64,000 bases of DNA, taken from contig JANWWS010000013.1 in assembly GCA_025055765.1 (NCBI GenBank), positions 124,001 to 188,000 of the forward strand. The letters are read 5' to 3'. This stretch comes from Leptospiraceae bacterium (GTDB lineage: Bacteria; Spirochaetota; Leptospiria; Turneriellales; Turneriellaceae). Both the position numbers and the translations under genes were made by a program. The notes under the pieces were generated by a model. That model did not search any database, had not been told where the DNA came from, and was given only the letters and a program-made list of their open reading frames with translations. Positions 14,635 to 64,000 of this stretch are shown piece after piece (positions within the stretch are counted from its first letter, which is position 1; every line of letters begins with the position of its first letter).

Positions 14635-15978
14635 ATGCTTTTACCTAAAAAAGAAGATTTTGAAGAATCTCCCCCGTTTGTTATCATGTGGCATCGCCGG
14701 GATCTGCGTATTAGTGACAACACGGCCCTAGCCCATGCCGTAAAATCGCATCTTGCCATACTCCCCATCTTTATTTTCGATAAAAATATTTTAGATAAAC
14801 TTGAAGACAAAGATGATAGCCGAGTAAGCTTTATTTACGAGGCTCTTGGGGAGCTTTCTCATGCTTATGAGAGACTGGGAGGCTTTCTCCAAGTTTATCA
14901 TGGCAAGCCCTTGGATGTATTTTCCATCTTTGCTTCTCTCGAGCCATGTAAGGGACTTTATACCAACGAAGACTACGAACCCTATGCCCGGGAAAGAGAC
15001 AAAAATATTGAAAAAATTTTTTTGCAGGCGGGTAAATGTTTTTATTCCTTTAAAGATCAGGTAATTTTCTCACCGGGAGAAATTTTAACCGAAGAGGGTC
15101 GTCCCTACACCGTTTTTACTCCTTTCTCAAAAAAATGGCTCAAGAAGTTAGCTGCGATTCGTCTAACACAATACTCACTGCCAAACAAAATCTCCTCACC
15201 TATAAACAAAAGCTACTTACCTAGGCTTGAGGAAATTGGCTTTGTTAAAAATAATAAAATATCTTTTCCCGAACGCAAAATTCCCCTTCAGGTGCTAAGC
15301 CATTATAAAGAGCGGAGAGATTTCCCCTACTTAAAGGGGACAACACGGCTGGGAGTACACCTACGCTTTGGTACTCTTTCCATCCGACAACTTGTGTTTG
15401 TGGCCATTTCAAAAAGCACTGCGTTTCTCCATGAGCTGATCTGGCGTGAATTTTTCATGATGCTTTTATGGTACTTTCCTCATACCACCGAAAAGCCCTT
15501 TCGCACTGCCTTTGAAGCCTTTCCCTATCGCAAAAGCGAAGAAGACTTTGAAGCTTGGTGTAATGGCAAAACGGGTTACCCTTTGGTGGATGCCGGAATG
15601 AGAGAGCTCAATGAGACAGGTTTTATGCACAATCGAGTAAGGATGGTTGTTGCATCCTTTCTAACCAAGCATTTACTCCTGCCTTGGCAATGGGGAGAGC
15701 GCTATTTTGCAAGAAAACTTTTAGATTTTGAACTTGCCTCTAACGTGGGAAATTGGCAATGGGCTGCCGGTTGTGGTGCCGACGCTGCACCTTATTTTCG
15801 TATTTTTAATCCAGAGCTTCAGCAAAAAAAATTTGATCCAGAGGGAAAGTATGTGCGTCAATTTTGTTCCGATTATATGCAGCGAAGACCACCTTTGATT
15901 ATTTCTCACGAAGAGGGACGCAAAAGAGCTCTGCTTGCTTTTGAATCAATAAAAGAAAGAATGAAAAACCTCTCCTAG
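14635..15978 (+). CDS. phr: DNA photolyase (cryptochrome/photolyase family)
   Basis: This flavoenzyme repairs ultraviolet-induced pyrimidine dimers with blue light. The N-terminal antenna domain starts MWHRRDLRISDNTAL (residues 18-32). The C-terminal FAD domain has LIWREFFMMLLW, TGYPLVDAGMRELNETGFMHNRVRMVVASFLTKHLL, and ELASNVGNWQWAAGCGADAAPYFRIFNP; the latter holds the conserved NxxxxQW stretch that lines the flavin and DNA pocket. At 447 residues it has the standard class I CPD photolyase length. It lies 3 bp after the PBP gene, so it is probably the last gene of that operon. It may be functionally tied to the CarH-like cluster at 59632, because photolyases often sit in such regulons; that is an inference. 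Confidence 0.93.
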   Translation: MLLPKKEDFEESPPFVIMWHRRDLRISDNTALAHAVKSHLAILPIFIFDKNILDKLEDKDDSRVSFIYEALGELSHAYERLGGFLQVYHGKPLDVFSIFASLEPCKGLYTNEDYEPYARERDKNIEKIFLQAGKCFYSFKDQVIFSPGEILTEEGRPYTVFTPFSKKWLKKLAAIRLTQYSLPNKISSPINKSYLPRLEEIGFVKNNKISFPERKIPLQVLSHYKERRDFPYLKGTTRLGVHLRFGTLSIRQLVFVAISKSTAFLHELIWREFFMMLLWYFPHTTEKPFRTAFEAFPYRKSEEDFEAWCNGKTGYPLVDAGMRELNETGFMHNRVRMVVASFLTKHLLLPWQWGERYFARKLLDFELASNVGNWQWAAGCGADAAPYFRIFNPELQQKKFDPEGKYVRQFCSDYMQRRPPLIISHEEGRKRALLAFESIKERMKNLS

Positions 15979-59543: not shown

Positions 59544-59594
59544 GGCCGAAAACTGGGCTCAGCCCCCCATATGTCAAAGGATTATGAAAAAGAT

Positions 59595-59623
59595 TTGACA
59601 ATAGGGTCTATGTTTTTTATCTT
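59595..59623 (+). promoter_or_regulatory. Promoter of the CarH-like operon
   Basis: TTGACA (59595-59600), a 17 bp spacer and TATCTT (59618-59623) lie directly before the regulator ATG at 59632. Transcription would start at the ATG, so the message may be leaderless. The extended -35, TTGACAAT, is the inverted copy of ATTGTCAA at 59536-59543 in the divergent promoter. Confidence 0.65.
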
Positions 59624-59631
59624 GTGGCTTA

Positions 59632-60414
59632 ATGAAGTACCTGGTAAAAGATCTAAGCCGCCTCACAGGTATCTCAGCTGCCCGGATTCGGAAATGGCAA
59701 GAGCGCTATGGCCTTTTGCATCCGGAAAAGGGAGAAAACGGCTATTGGTATTACTCAGAGGAGGATTATCTAATCTTAAAAACGCTAAAAGAGCGACTCG
59801 CAAAGGGGGAAAAACTACGTTTCTTAGCGGGGCAAGATCGCACAAAGCTACTCTCCTCAAGCCGAGATCAATTATTCCATCATGAGGAGTTAGAAATTGT
59901 ACGTCTCGTGGAGCAGGGTCAATTGGGAGCTTTGCGCGAGTACTTGGACCGCCAAAAGCAAAACCATACCTTTGCCTCCTACATAAGAAAGGTAGTGAAA
60001 CCTCTGCTTGAGATGCTTGCGTCAGCCTCCCAGCACCAATGGCTCTCTTTGGGCGCTGAGCATACCTTCTGCCGATACCTTGTGGGGTATCTACTAACTT
60101 CTTTTGAGGAAGCACTCCAAAAGGAGAGGCCTATTTGGCTTGTAACTATTTTTCCAGGGGAGGTCCACGAGTTACGGGCGACGCTTCACTACCTTCTCCT
60201 CTTGTGTGGTAAAGTTTCCGCAAGAATGGTCGGATCACTAAGTGAAAAAGACCTTATTCAGGAAATCAAACAAAACAACTACCACTTTGCCAGCATTGTT
60301 ATGGTACTCCCCCAGAGCTTAGAAAATGCGGAAAGACTTCGCCGCCTGCTTTTAGAAAAAACCACTCTAAAGCGTATTTATCTTGGAGGAGAGGGGCTTG
60401 TGAGGTCACCATGA
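59632..60414 (+). CDS. MerR/CarH-like transcriptional regulator with putative B12-binding domain
   Basis: The N-terminal MerR helix-turn-helix (DLSRLTGISAARIRKWQERYGLLHPEKGENGYWYYSEEDYLILK, residues 7-50) is followed by a helical bundle (about 85-160) and a Rossmann-like domain (about 165-258), which is the layout of CarA, CarH and LitR. The lower axial cobalamin ligand is plausible as His179 in PGEVHELRATL. The upper-face Trp and EH pair are Trp137 and E143-H144; in CarH nine residues lie between them (Wx9EH), here five. So B12 binding is possible but not certain. CarH is a tetrameric repressor that falls apart in light. The gene overlaps the amine oxidase by 4 bp and leads the cluster. Confidence 0.85.
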   Translation: MKYLVKDLSRLTGISAARIRKWQERYGLLHPEKGENGYWYYSEEDYLILKTLKERLAKGEKLRFLAGQDRTKLLSSSRDQLFHHEELEIVRLVEQGQLGALREYLDRQKQNHTFASYIRKVVKPLLEMLASASQHQWLSLGAEHTFCRYLVGYLLTSFEEALQKERPIWLVTIFPGEVHELRATLHYLLLLCGKVSARMVGSLSEKDLIQEIKQNNYHFASIVMVLPQSLENAERLRRLLLEKTTLKRIYLGGEGLVRSP

Positions 60415-61652
60415 AGCCAAGCCTCGCCATAGTCGGAAGTGGCATTTCTGGTCTTGGGTGTGCCTACTACCTGAAGGACAAATATAATATTAAAATCTAC
60501 GAAAAGGAGGACTATGCTGGTGGGCACAGCAATACCGTAGATGTCAGGGAAAAGGAAAAAACTCTGCCTATTGATACGGGGTTTATTGTCTTTAACAAAA
60601 TTACTTACCCCTTACTCGTACAACTTTTTGAGGAACTTGGGGTATCCTACCAAGAAAGCGACATGTCTTTTTCGTTTTATCACGAAGACAGCCAACTTCA
60701 ATATCATGGTTCAAGTTTAAACGGTCTTTTTGCGCAACGTATTAATCTTTTAAGACCAGCTTATTACCGCTTCTTACTTGAAATCCATCGGTTCAATCAG
60801 CAAGCACCCAAACATCTTCCCGAGCTATCTCCAGAAATAACCCTAGGTGATTATCTCAAAAGGGAGCGCTATTCTTCTGATTTTATTGAGTATTTCCTTA
60901 TACCCATGGGCTCTGCGGTTTGGTCTACTCCAGCTGAGCTCATGTTTTCTTTTCCTGCAAGCACTCTCATCCGTTTTTTCCATAACCATGGCTTTCTAGG
61001 ACTCAATACCCAATACCAGTGGTATACCATACAAGGGGGATCTCGAGAATACGTGAGGCTTTTGCGCGAAGCCATTGCCAAAAAGCAGGGTCGAGATGTT
61101 TTTCTAAAAACACCTGTAAGGCATATAGAGTCCGATGGGAAGAAAATTAAACTTTATATTAAAAACAAGAGTGAGCTTTTTGATAAAGTGATCCTAGCAT
61201 GCCACGCTCCCGATGCTTTAAAAATCATAAAAAAACCCTCCCCCTTACAACAAGAACTTCTCTCTGCCTTCCGGTACCACAAGAATTTAGCTGTTTTACA
61301 CCATGATGAAAGTGTTATGCCTCCTTTAAAGCGCATCTGGTGCTCTTGGAACTACCGCCGCAAAGGAAATCTTACCAGTACGGTCTATTACATGAATCGA
61401 TTACAAAAATTAAAAACCCAAATTAATTACTTTGTCTCTATTAATGACTATCGCAAAATTTCTCCCGCAAAAATCATTAAAACTATAGAATATGAACATC
61501 CCCTCTTTGATAGCAAAGCCATTTTATACCAAAATCGCTTACATGAACTTAATAAAAAGGGGCCTATATTTTTTTGTGGTGCTTATTTTCGCTATGGCTT
61601 TCATGAAGATGGCCTATGGTCTGCCAAGGTTTTAAGTGAGAGGCTCTTATGA
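60411..61652 (+). CDS. FAD-dependent amine oxidase-like protein
   Basis: A flavoprotein with a dinucleotide-binding start (LAIVGSGISGLGCAYYLKDKYNIKIYEKEDYAGGHSNTV, about 5-43) and an ending typical of the amine oxidase and desaturase-like group (GPIFFCGAYFRYGFHEDGLWSAK). It is the short NAD(P)-binding form found beside DUF1365 and cyclopropane synthase genes in many bacteria. It may oxidise or desaturate the acyl chains modified downstream; the substrate is not established. It overlaps the DUF1365 gene by 4 bp. Confidence 0.88.
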   Translation: MKPSLAIVGSGISGLGCAYYLKDKYNIKIYEKEDYAGGHSNTVDVREKEKTLPIDTGFIVFNKITYPLLVQLFEELGVSYQESDMSFSFYHEDSQLQYHGSSLNGLFAQRINLLRPAYYRFLLEIHRFNQQAPKHLPELSPEITLGDYLKRERYSSDFIEYFLIPMGSAVWSTPAELMFSFPASTLIRFFHNHGFLGLNTQYQWYTIQGGSREYVRLLREAIAKKQGRDVFLKTPVRHIESDGKKIKLYIKNKSELFDKVILACHAPDALKIIKKPSPLQQELLSAFRYHKNLAVLHHDESVMPPLKRIWCSWNYRRKGNLTSTVYYMNRLQKLKTQINYFVSINDYRKISPAKIIKTIEYEHPLFDSKAILYQNRLHELNKKGPIFFCGAYFRYGFHEDGLWSAKVLSERLL

Positions 61653-62467
61653 AAAAGCGCTACCCAAATAGCTGTCTTTATCTTGCCCGCCTTTACCATT
61701 ATCGAGAGCGTACTTGCAAACATTATTTTTCTTATCCTGTTTATTTTTGGTATCTTGACCTTGAGGAAATAGAAAAATGGGGACGCCGTAGCCGAATCCT
61801 AGGTTATGAAAGATTTGCTCTCTTTTCCTTTTACGAAAAAGACCATGGACTCTTTTTAGCGCAAGGCACCCTTCGAGAAAAGCTATATAATTTAATTTTA
61901 TATGAAAACTGGCCATTGCCCCAGCGCATTCGACTATTAACTAACCTGCGAGTATTGGGCTATGTATTTAATCCTGTGAGTTTTTATTTTCTCTTTGACA
62001 AAGAGGACCGTGCCTATGGCGTAGTGGTTGAAGTAAACAACACCTTTGGAGAACAAAAAGCCTATCTTTTAAAGATCAAAAATGATTTTGCACAGGGAGA
62101 AGAGACAAAATGGTTTTATGTCTCTCCCTTTATACGCCATGACAGTCGATTTTGTTTTTCTTTGCATTTACCTAATGAGACCTTGAGACTGCGCATTGAT
62201 ACCCGTGATGACCAAGGTATAGAATTAAAAGCTGCTGTATGGGGAAAAAAAATACCAATAACTTGGGCCAACATTTTTTATGTATTTTGCCGCTACCCGC
62301 TTTACACCCTTTTTGTTATTGGGCGCATCCATTATCATGCACTTCTCTTATATTTAAAGCGAATTCCTTTTTACCGCAAGAAAGAAACCGATATAGCCAT
62401 TTTAAAAGCTAAAGGAGGATATAATGAAACACCCAGTAACAACAGCATCGTACACGGACAAAGTTAA
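61649..62467 (+). CDS. DUF1365-family protein
   Basis: The 272-residue protein begins LYLARLYHYRERTCKHYFSYPVYFWYLDLEEIEKW, continues LGYVFNPVSFYFLFDKEDRAYGVVVEVNNTFGE and YVSPFIRHDSRFCFS, which are the family's conserved parts. The function is unknown; genes of this family lie with those of the amine oxidase and cyclopropane-synthase families, so a part in lipid modification is inferred. The end overlaps the next gene by 44 bp. Confidence 0.88.
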   Translation: MKKRYPNSCLYLARLYHYRERTCKHYFSYPVYFWYLDLEEIEKWGRRSRILGYERFALFSFYEKDHGLFLAQGTLREKLYNLILYENWPLPQRIRLLTNLRVLGYVFNPVSFYFLFDKEDRAYGVVVEVNNTFGEQKAYLLKIKNDFAQGEETKWFYVSPFIRHDSRFCFSLHLPNETLRLRIDTRDDQGIELKAAVWGKKIPITWANIFYVFCRYPLYTLFVIGRIHYHALLLYLKRIPFYRKKETDIAILKAKGGYNETPSNNSIVHGQS

Positions 62468-63707
62468 AACCAAAGCAAAGGGACTTCCGTTTTATGAACG
62501 AATTTTTTACAAGGCACTTGCCTCAGCCAAAAAAGGTCAGCTTAGAGTTATAAAAGAAAACGGCGAATGCTTCATCTTAGGCGAGGGTCTGCTAAGGGCC
62601 GAGATTTGGATAAAAGACAAAGCTTTTTTTAAAAAAGCCGTGCTTTTTGGTGATGTTGGTTTTGGTGAAGCCTATGTAGATGGTATGTGGGATTCACCAG
62701 ATGTACTTGCTGTACTAAAATGGTTTGCCGAAAATGCGGCAACGACCCCTACATTCGCCCAAAGTGCGGCGCACTCGCTCCTCGTAAACTCTCTTGGCTT
62801 TCTAAACTACCTTCAACACCTAAGGCGTCCTAATTCCATAAGAAAAGCTCGTGAGAACATCCAACATCATTACGATTTATCCAATGAACTTTATCAACTC
62901 ATGCTTGACAAGTCCATGGCGTATTCCTGCGCCCTTTTTCTTTCAGAAAAAGACTCCTTAGAAAAAGCCCAAAAGAGAAAATACGAAATTATTTGTCAAA
63001 AACTCAATTTGCAAAAAGGACATCATATCCTAGAAATTGGCAGTGGCTGGGGAGGTTTTGCTCTCTATGCTGCTAAAAACTACGGAGTAAAGGTCACCAC
63101 CATAACCATATCCAAAGAGCAATTCCGTTATGTAGCGGATCTCATAAAAAAAGAAAATATTGAACATCTCATAGAGGTTCGCTTTGAAGATTACCGAAAA
63201 ACCAAAGGAAAGTTTGATAGAATTGTTTCTATTGAAATGATGGAGGCACTTGGCTATCGATACTACGACATCTTTTTTTCGCAAATCAACAACCTCTTAA
63301 AACCAGAGGGCTTGGTCTTATTGCAATGTATAACCTACCCCGATGCTAGCTTCCACAAATACCGCAGGCGTAGTGATTGGATTCAAAAATACATCTTTCC
63401 AGGTTCCCTCCTCCTCTCCCTTCATGAAATGAGAAGATCTCTATTGCGCACAAGTGATTTAGAAATTTACGATATAGAAAGTATGGGACAAAGTTATGTA
63501 AAAACCCTCAAGGCCTGGCAAGACAATTTTAATAGAAAACGAAACAAAGTTCTCTCCCTGGGTTTTGACGAGCGCTTTCTGCGTATGTGGAATTATTACC
63601 TGTGGTATTGTCAGGCTGGCTTTGAATCCCGTTACATTAATGTAATACAAATTCTGCTATCACGACCTCAAAATCCGGCATTAAAGGACTTCCATGCACT
63701 GGGTTAA
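62424..63707 (+). CDS. Cyclopropane-fatty-acyl-phospholipid synthase family methyltransferase
   Basis: This SAM-dependent enzyme adds a methylene or methyl group to unsaturated phospholipid acyl chains. NIQHHYDLSNELYQLMLDKSMAYSCALF begins the domain, then HILEIGSGWGGFALYAAKNYG for SAM binding, ITISKEQFRY, VSIEMMEALGYRYY and the end LWYCQAGFESRYINVIQILLSRP. At 427 residues it has the typical long form. A strong ribosome site (AGGAGG) lies 5 bp before the ATG, inside DUF1365. Gene context could also fit a furan-fatty-acid type enzyme; the product cannot be fixed from sequence. Confidence 0.92.
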   Translation: MKHPVTTASYTDKVKTKAKGLPFYERIFYKALASAKKGQLRVIKENGECFILGEGLLRAEIWIKDKAFFKKAVLFGDVGFGEAYVDGMWDSPDVLAVLKWFAENAATTPTFAQSAAHSLLVNSLGFLNYLQHLRRPNSIRKARENIQHHYDLSNELYQLMLDKSMAYSCALFLSEKDSLEKAQKRKYEIICQKLNLQKGHHILEIGSGWGGFALYAAKNYGVKVTTITISKEQFRYVADLIKKENIEHLIEVRFEDYRKTKGKFDRIVSIEMMEALGYRYYDIFFSQINNLLKPEGLVLLQCITYPDASFHKYRRRSDWIQKYIFPGSLLLSLHEMRRSLLRTSDLEIYDIESMGQSYVKTLKAWQDNFNRKRNKVLSLGFDERFLRMWNYYLWYCQAGFESRYINVIQILLSRPQNPALKDFHALG

Positions 63708-64000
63708 GCATACTCTTTTTTGGGCAGCTGCGTTTTTCGTGGAAGAAATGAGAGCCTTCTCCAGTAGCTATAGAGCTCAGGCCAAAGATTTAAAAAGTGG
63801 AAGGGTGATCTACTACGAGAACCATGAGGAAATCTGGCAGGAAGGACGCCACCTTCATTCCGAGGTTACCTACACCACACCTGAGGGAAAAACCATTGCA
63901 AGAAAAAAGATCATCTTTGAAAAAAGCAAGACGGCCCCTGACTTCGTCACCGAAGACCTCCGTACAGGTTATTTAGAAGGAGCGCAATACCTCGGTCCTC
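63694..64000 (+). CDS. Secreted protein of unknown function, cut by the window edge
   Basis: An ATG inside the end of the synthase gene opens a frame that runs to the edge, about 102 codons. The start is short and hydrophobic (HTLFWAAAFFVEEMRAFS), a possible signal peptide. The visible part includes AKDLKSGRVIYYENHEEIWQEGRH, TTPEGKTIARKKIIFE and EDLRTGYLEGAQYLG, a beta-rich pattern that I cannot assign to a family. By position it belongs to the CarH-like cluster. Confidence 0.75.
   Translation, partial: MHWVKHTLFWAAAFFVEEMRAFSSSYRAQAKDLKSGRVIYYENHEEIWQEGRHLHSEVTYTTPEGKTIARKKIIFEKSKTAPDFVTEDLRTGYLEGAQYLGP

Follow-up and report, generated by a model that had tools for sequence, protein, structure and literature searches.

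A candidate light-responsive regulon for furan-lipid synthesis under a CarH/LitR-family regulator in a Leptospiraceae bacterium

Gene content of the locus

The DNA considered here, referred to below as the window, is a stretch of 64,000 nucleotides from a Leptospiraceae bacterium (contig JANWWS010000013.1, or G000:C49:124001-188000 in our numbering) and is part of a 2.5-Mb genome that is 99% complete. Five genes on the same strand, each overlapping the next, run from position 59632 to the end of the window at 64000 and beyond it, and a sixth gene lies just past the window. The first of them (59632..60414, + strand) encodes a regulator of 260 amino acids (aa) with a MerR/CarH fold (PF13411, E 2e-11; AlphaFold2; Foldseek) and a degenerate B12 site. 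It is followed on the + strand by genes for an amine-oxidase-like oxidoreductase of the flavin adenine dinucleotide (FAD) type that resembles UfaD (60411..61652; PF01593, E 4e-22; PF13450) and is predicted, from its place in a ufaD-ufaO-ufaM order, to be a methyl-acyl desaturase; for a UfaO-like DUF1365 protein (61649..62467; PF07103, E 2e-65, 221 bits), the predicted O2-dependent furan-forming enzyme; and for a UfaM-like methyltransferase dependent on S-adenosylmethionine (SAM), which belongs to the cyclopropane fatty acid (CFA) synthase family, CMAS (62424..63707; PF02353, E 6e-90), and differs from canonical cyclopropane synthases by the changes H240A and H266Q. The fifth gene (63694..64000, on to G000:C49:188419; L002:7694-8419; + strand) specifies an exported protein of 241 aa with a LolA/RseB/DUF1849-like fold (AlphaFold2, predicted local distance difference test, pLDDT, 90). 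A first-pass annotation of this DNA had named these components as overlapping genes and had guessed at a spirochaete; the gene calls and Pfam searches agree with the former, and the named records with homologues of the regulator, all metagenome-assembled genomes of Leptospiraceae/Leptospirales, agree with the latter.

The three enzyme genes have counterparts in the Proteobacteria. UfaM of Rhodobacter is a SAM-dependent acyl methylase, UfaD a desaturase with an NAD/FAD domain and UfaO a DUF1365 protein, and in R. palustris ufaM, ufaO and ufaD stand side by side as RPA2569-2571 (PMC7380195). The same three families of the Ufa pathway (RSP2144/RSP1091/RSP1090 in R. sphaeroides) are adjacent in the window, where the FAD-DUF1365-CFA order is that of RPA2571-2570-2569. 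Judged by its genes, the locus is very probably a furan-fatty-acid operon, and its product would be a furan fatty acid. In contrast to the proteobacterial sets, this one resides in a spirochaete, has MerR/CarH-family control in place of ChrR-sigmaE, includes the LolA/RseB-like protein and a lipoprotein, and shares its operator with a fatty-acid desaturase and a photoactive yellow protein (PYP).

The operator and its distribution

A 29-bp inverted repeat, TGTCAAA-N15-TTTGACA, at 59572..59600 precedes the regulator gene and is the sole exact match within the window to the operator newly described here, TGTCNAW-N15-WTNGACA, a consensus found by comparing the promoters of the regulator genes. Its right arm coincides with the -35 box of a putative promoter read from the sequence (TTGACA-N17-TATCTT, 59595..59623, + strand), and a transcript of the operon started there would be nearly leaderless. 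The arm TNGACA agrees with the T-n-n-A-C-A core of known LitR/CarH half-sites. The Pseudomonas LitR site, TGTACA-N12-TGTACA, was also considered and is not in excess within the window.

Related loci amounting to 346 kb contain 16 exact copies of the operator, where first-order shuffles lead one to expect 0.1. Since some of these loci had served to define the pattern, more weight falls on an independent test with a matrix trained solely on the regulator promoters of relatives, for which the 99.9% level of shuffled or random sequence is 13 bits. Operators in the whole genome were sought by a pattern search with up to two mismatches and then ranked with the matrix. Four exact sites were found, of which three are intergenic and lie before the regulator gene, the PYP operon and the desaturase gene, with scores of 30.5, 28.4 and 32.0 bits from a matrix that contains no sequence of this genome. 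The site of the PYP operon (C37:38478-38506) lies 27 bp ahead of a small coiled-coil gene, which is followed by the genes for PYP, an AMP-ligase (p-coumarate:CoA ligase) and an aromatic ammonia lyase, and the site of the fatty-acid desaturase (C3:35244-35272) separates this gene from a divergent one for a Bfd-like protein. The fourth exact match (C26:3248) falls within the coding sequence of a cas7-like gene, gets a low score from the matrix and is attributed to chance.

Among relatives, the operator occurs between the regulator gene and a divergent photolyase gene in four loci (L036, L038, L040 and L043), and further copies precede genes for DUF1295, DUF5939-cyclase, CFA2, PYP and photoactivated adenylyl cyclases of the BLUF type (PAC). 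With the regulator-promoter matrix, nine PAC promoters out of 21 exceed 17 bits, and two more (G032 and G044) have the same arms around a 14-bp spacer.

Conservation of the operon in relatives

The search for the same gene order that the first-pass annotation had proposed showed that the regulator and the operon recur in this arrangement in most of the relatives that possess the regulator. DUF1365 is present in 26/28 genomes with the regulator as compared with 6/33 without it (61 genomes, relatedness uncorrected), and the recurrence of the order together with this co-occurrence indicates that the arrangement is not due to chance. PYP or PAC genes were likewise found in 25 of the 28 genomes with the regulator and in 6 of the 33 without it, again uncorrected for relatedness; the co-occurrence of the regulator with PYP alone was not significant within the class (P 0.36).

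Some loci depart from the common layout. The regulator genes of L042 and L046 have no ufa operon and stand alone or beside a BLUF-cyclase gene, with operator-like repeats still present. In L033, L051 and L147 the regulator is preceded by genes for a DUF5939 and nucleotide-cyclase protein and an MFS_2 transporter, and these appear to begin a single long operon that continues through the regulator and ufaD-ufaO-ufaM to PYP.

The regulator and its degenerate B12 site

Pfam, an AlphaFold2 model (pLDDT 88.5, 27 homologues) and Foldseek matches to 5c8d/5c8e agree that the regulator consists of a MerR DNA-binding domain, a helix bundle and a Rossmann domain. The top Foldseek matches to the model are all CarH of T. 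thermophilus (5c8d/5c8e/5c8f), which upholds the earlier designation as CarH/LitR-like, and a phmmer match of residues 3-204 to 3whp/5c8d (E 1e-9) places the protein in the LitR/CarH family, broadly understood. Two motifs, Wx9EH and ExHx2G...S...GG, define CarH; the first is critical, and its absence from CarA largely explains why CarA acts independently of B12 (PMC8156234). Both motifs are altered in the window regulator: Wx9EH has become Sx9EH, with the Glu-His pair kept, and HELG has become HELR (in GEVHELR), with His179 kept. Wx9EH is present in 27, the B12 motif in 24 and both in 23 of the 28 other homologues in the class.

His179, in the sequence PGEVHEL, had been put forward as a B12 ligand; the histidine is indeed retained, and the replacement of Trp by Ser and of Gly by Arg nonetheless breaks both CarH motifs, so that the case for a B12 photoreceptor built on this residue is weak for the window protein and good for its relatives. 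The regulators of most relatives probably sense light themselves by way of B12, with PYP and PAC as outputs. No paralogue of the regulator was found in the genome. The gene still has an intact reading frame, the other parts of the fold are preserved and the regulon sites remain, which would point to a loss of the B12 input rather than to a dead gene.

It might be argued that the window regulator is a working adenosylcobalamin (AdoCbl) photoreceptor of the CarH type, with His179 as the lower ligand in spite of the changed residues around it. The CarH fold, the retained His179 and Glu-His pair and the full CarH signature of most relatives are in keeping with this view, as is the cobalamin adenosyltransferase encoded in the genome, by which AdoCbl may be available. 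With both defining motifs broken, and Wx9EH held to be critical (PMC8156234), we consider it rather unlikely.

Like CarH of T. thermophilus and M. xanthus, the window regulator has the MerR domain, the four-helix bundle, the Rossmann domain, the equivalent of His177 and an operator over the -35 region; unlike them, it has lost Trp from Wx9EH and Gly from HxxG, its operator is an inverted repeat with a 15-bp spacer in place of 11-bp direct repeats, and no carotenoid genes accompany it. CarA of M. xanthus, a CarH paralogue that lacks Wx9EH and represses without B12, is a second parallel; CarA, however, has retained a canonical motif for B12 binding and is antagonized by CarS, and no CarS is known here.

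A proposed regulatory circuit

The reading that we favour, and hold to be moderately probable, is that of a light-responsive repressor regulon for photoprotection by furan lipids, in which a CarH/LitR-family repressor governs a furan-fatty-acid operon; we infer both the repression and light as its signal. In uninduced cells, that is in the dark, the regulator would be bound to the 29-bp inverted repeat that covers the -35 box and would keep the operon shut off, and the signal, most likely light, would release it and allow expression. UfaM would then methylate an unsaturated phospholipid chain, UfaD would introduce a second double bond and UfaO would close the furan ring with O2, to yield a membrane lipid with a presumed protective role against oxidants that damage membranes and against the oxygen damage generated by light. 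The same repressor would control the PYP operon and the desaturase, which might supply the unsaturated substrate. The first-pass annotation had left open whether the lipid modification is controlled by light or by oxidation; the operator, shared here with PYP and in relatives with photolyase and blue-light cyclases, makes light control the likely one.

There is a precedent in Pseudomonas, where phrB and ufaM are under the light-dependent control of LitR-family regulators and a repressor of this family, thought to be independent of B12, is released by a blue-light protein (PMC9758184). The simplest reading of the spirochaete locus is a circuit of this type with a CarH-like protein in it. The resemblance to the class II LitR proteins (PplR/PmlR), which with a short LOV protein place phrB and a ufaM cluster under light-induced control, has its limits: class II LitR has the helix bundle alone, whereas the window protein keeps the Rossmann domain, and the Pseudomonas system differs in its partner, a LOV protein, and in its TGTACA-N12-TGTACA operator.

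Several observations weigh against the proposed regulon. Six genomes have DUF1365 and no regulator. The PYP genes of G003, G004, G040 and five f5 genomes are without the operator, and the link of PYP to the regulon is therefore not universal in the class. The window regulator, with its degenerate B12 site, may not itself be a light sensor, and UfaM, UfaD and UfaO were assigned by family, gene order and residues rather than through a direct alignment to their R. sphaeroides counterparts.

Candidate light sensors

The PYP of this genome (L099:4769-5185) matches that of H. halophila with an E of 7e-32 and keeps Tyr42, Glu46 and Cys69; like all the PYPs found in the class, it scores under the curated cut-off of TIGR02373. 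It is the only photoreceptor found in the genome besides photolyase. Searches of the genome for BLUF and phytochrome (PHY) found none, and the only LOV motif match (C7:1448) is inside a Cas9 gene; a rhodopsin search was uninformative, as it gave no match even in control genomes. With the B12 site of the regulator broken, PYP is the best candidate for the input in this genome. The BLUF proteins of relatives carry a cyclase domain; known PACs are TpPAC from Turneriella parva and LiPAC from Leptonema illini (cited in PMC9043183). We had considered them as simple anti-repressors; since they are BLUF-cyclases, they are more likely to be outputs of the regulon.

A more specific version of the circuit would make the regulator B12-independent, as CarA is, and have it released by PYP, much as PmlR2 is by PmSB-LOV in Pseudomonas (PMC9758184). 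Light-activated PYP, alone or with a coiled-coil partner, would then relieve furan-lipid synthesis and its own operon of the repression exerted by a CarH-fold protein that no longer has a B12 chromophore site. PYP has the operator both here and in G024 and directly follows ufaM in five g18 genomes, which, with its place as the sole photoreceptor besides photolyase, is consistent with such a role. PYP may be no more than an output, as the PACs appear to be in relatives, and the coiled-coil gene beside it offers an equally good partner for PYP. We put this mechanism forward tentatively and regard its probability as rather low.

The small coiled-coil gene (L099:5194-5451, on G000:C37; loci L129-L138) is found directly before PYP in almost every PYP-bearing genome of the class, including the f5 genomes that have no regulator, and its product is likely to be a direct partner of PYP. 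The operon resembles the PYP-pCL-TAL operon of Halorhodospira halophila in that p-coumarate:CoA ligase and ammonia lyase follow PYP, and differs from it in that the coiled-coil gene and a CarH-type operator come first. Two surveys of PYP neighbourhoods mention no MerR regulators, furan genes or CFA genes in their main text (PMC12826048, PMC9664959).

If PYP is the input, the regulon would give a single-domain PYP a defined transcriptional output; which partners PYP signals through is recognised as a gap (PMC12826048). Through the shared operator, a single CarH-family repressor would govern furan-lipid genes together with those for PYP, photolyase and photoactivated cyclases, a concrete and testable circuit in spirochaetes; furan fatty acid synthesis, itself probable here, and its control by light would thereby reach beyond the Proteobacteria. 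The window protein might in addition be an example from nature of how a CarH-type sensor can lose its B12 site and retain its regulon.

An oxidative signal and the nature of the product

The proposal of light as the signal has to be set against one in which the cell responds to an oxidative cue such as singlet oxygen or the redox state, and not to light as such. The homologous operon of Rhodobacter is under ChrR (PMC7380195), and the triad of Rhizobium daejeonense adjoins ChrR-sigmaE, in line with the earlier suggestion that the cluster modifies acyl chains and is akin to the ChrR-sigmaE set, which the identity of the genes as ufaD-ufaO-ufaM supports. No sigmaE/ChrR pair was seen among the genes neighbouring the window operon. 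It is difficult to see, if light plays no part, why the photoreceptor genes PYP and PAC should share the operator, and we think a purely oxidative signal quite improbable. On a plasmid of Azoarcus KH32C (L183:4648-9436), a divergent MerR gene whose product has both Wx9EH and ExHxxG adjoins a ufaD-ufaO-ufaM operon, and the stretch between them contains repeats of the type TTTGTC...GGACAAA.

Residues 139, 239, 266, 268 and 317 of E. coli Cfa bind bicarbonate. Relative to that enzyme (6bqc), the window methyltransferase keeps C139, E239, I268 and Y317 and has Gln for H266 and Ala for H240, so that the bicarbonate-ligand set of cyclopropane synthases (C139, E239, H266, I268, Y317) is incomplete at H266. 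A240/Q266 are common to all UfaM-type orthologues of the class and recur with the FAD-DUF1365-CFA triad in Rhizobium daejeonense, Azoarcus KH32C and Burkholderia anthina, the window enzyme thus having the active-site residues of the proteobacterial clusters, whereas a second family of the same clade, CFA2, keeps both His. That the operon makes a cyclopropane or a simple methyl-branched acid instead of a furan, as membership of the CMAS family and the cyclopropane synthase annotations of family members elsewhere might suggest, is improbable in view of Gln at position 266 in every UfaM-type member and of the adjoining DUF1365 gene.

Other features of the window and genome

The exported protein has only weak fold matches throughout, the best being to 6ntr (TM-score about 0.5). 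The gene directly after it, outside the window (L002:8419-9132), encodes a lipoprotein of 237 aa, and the two proteins probably help in the handling of lipid or envelope cargo. Convergent chemotaxis genes lie beyond the lipoprotein gene, and on its other side the operon is bordered by STAS/VanY genes and a gene for an 837-aa protein.

A photolyase/cryptochrome gene in the window (14635..15978, + strand; PF03441/PF00875) starts 3 bp past the end of an upstream PBP gene. It had been thought a possible member of the same regulon; no operator was detected near it, the best nearby candidate (15243) scoring 5.9 bits, and in this genome it probably stands outside the regulon. A weaker intergenic candidate (C11:234194; L096:1501-1529; 23.7 bits) precedes a transaldolase/fructose-6-phosphate-aldolase-like gene, which is a possible regulon member. 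The genome also carries a Cas9 gene together with a type I-C-like set of cas genes (L101 and L180, on G000:C26 and C7).

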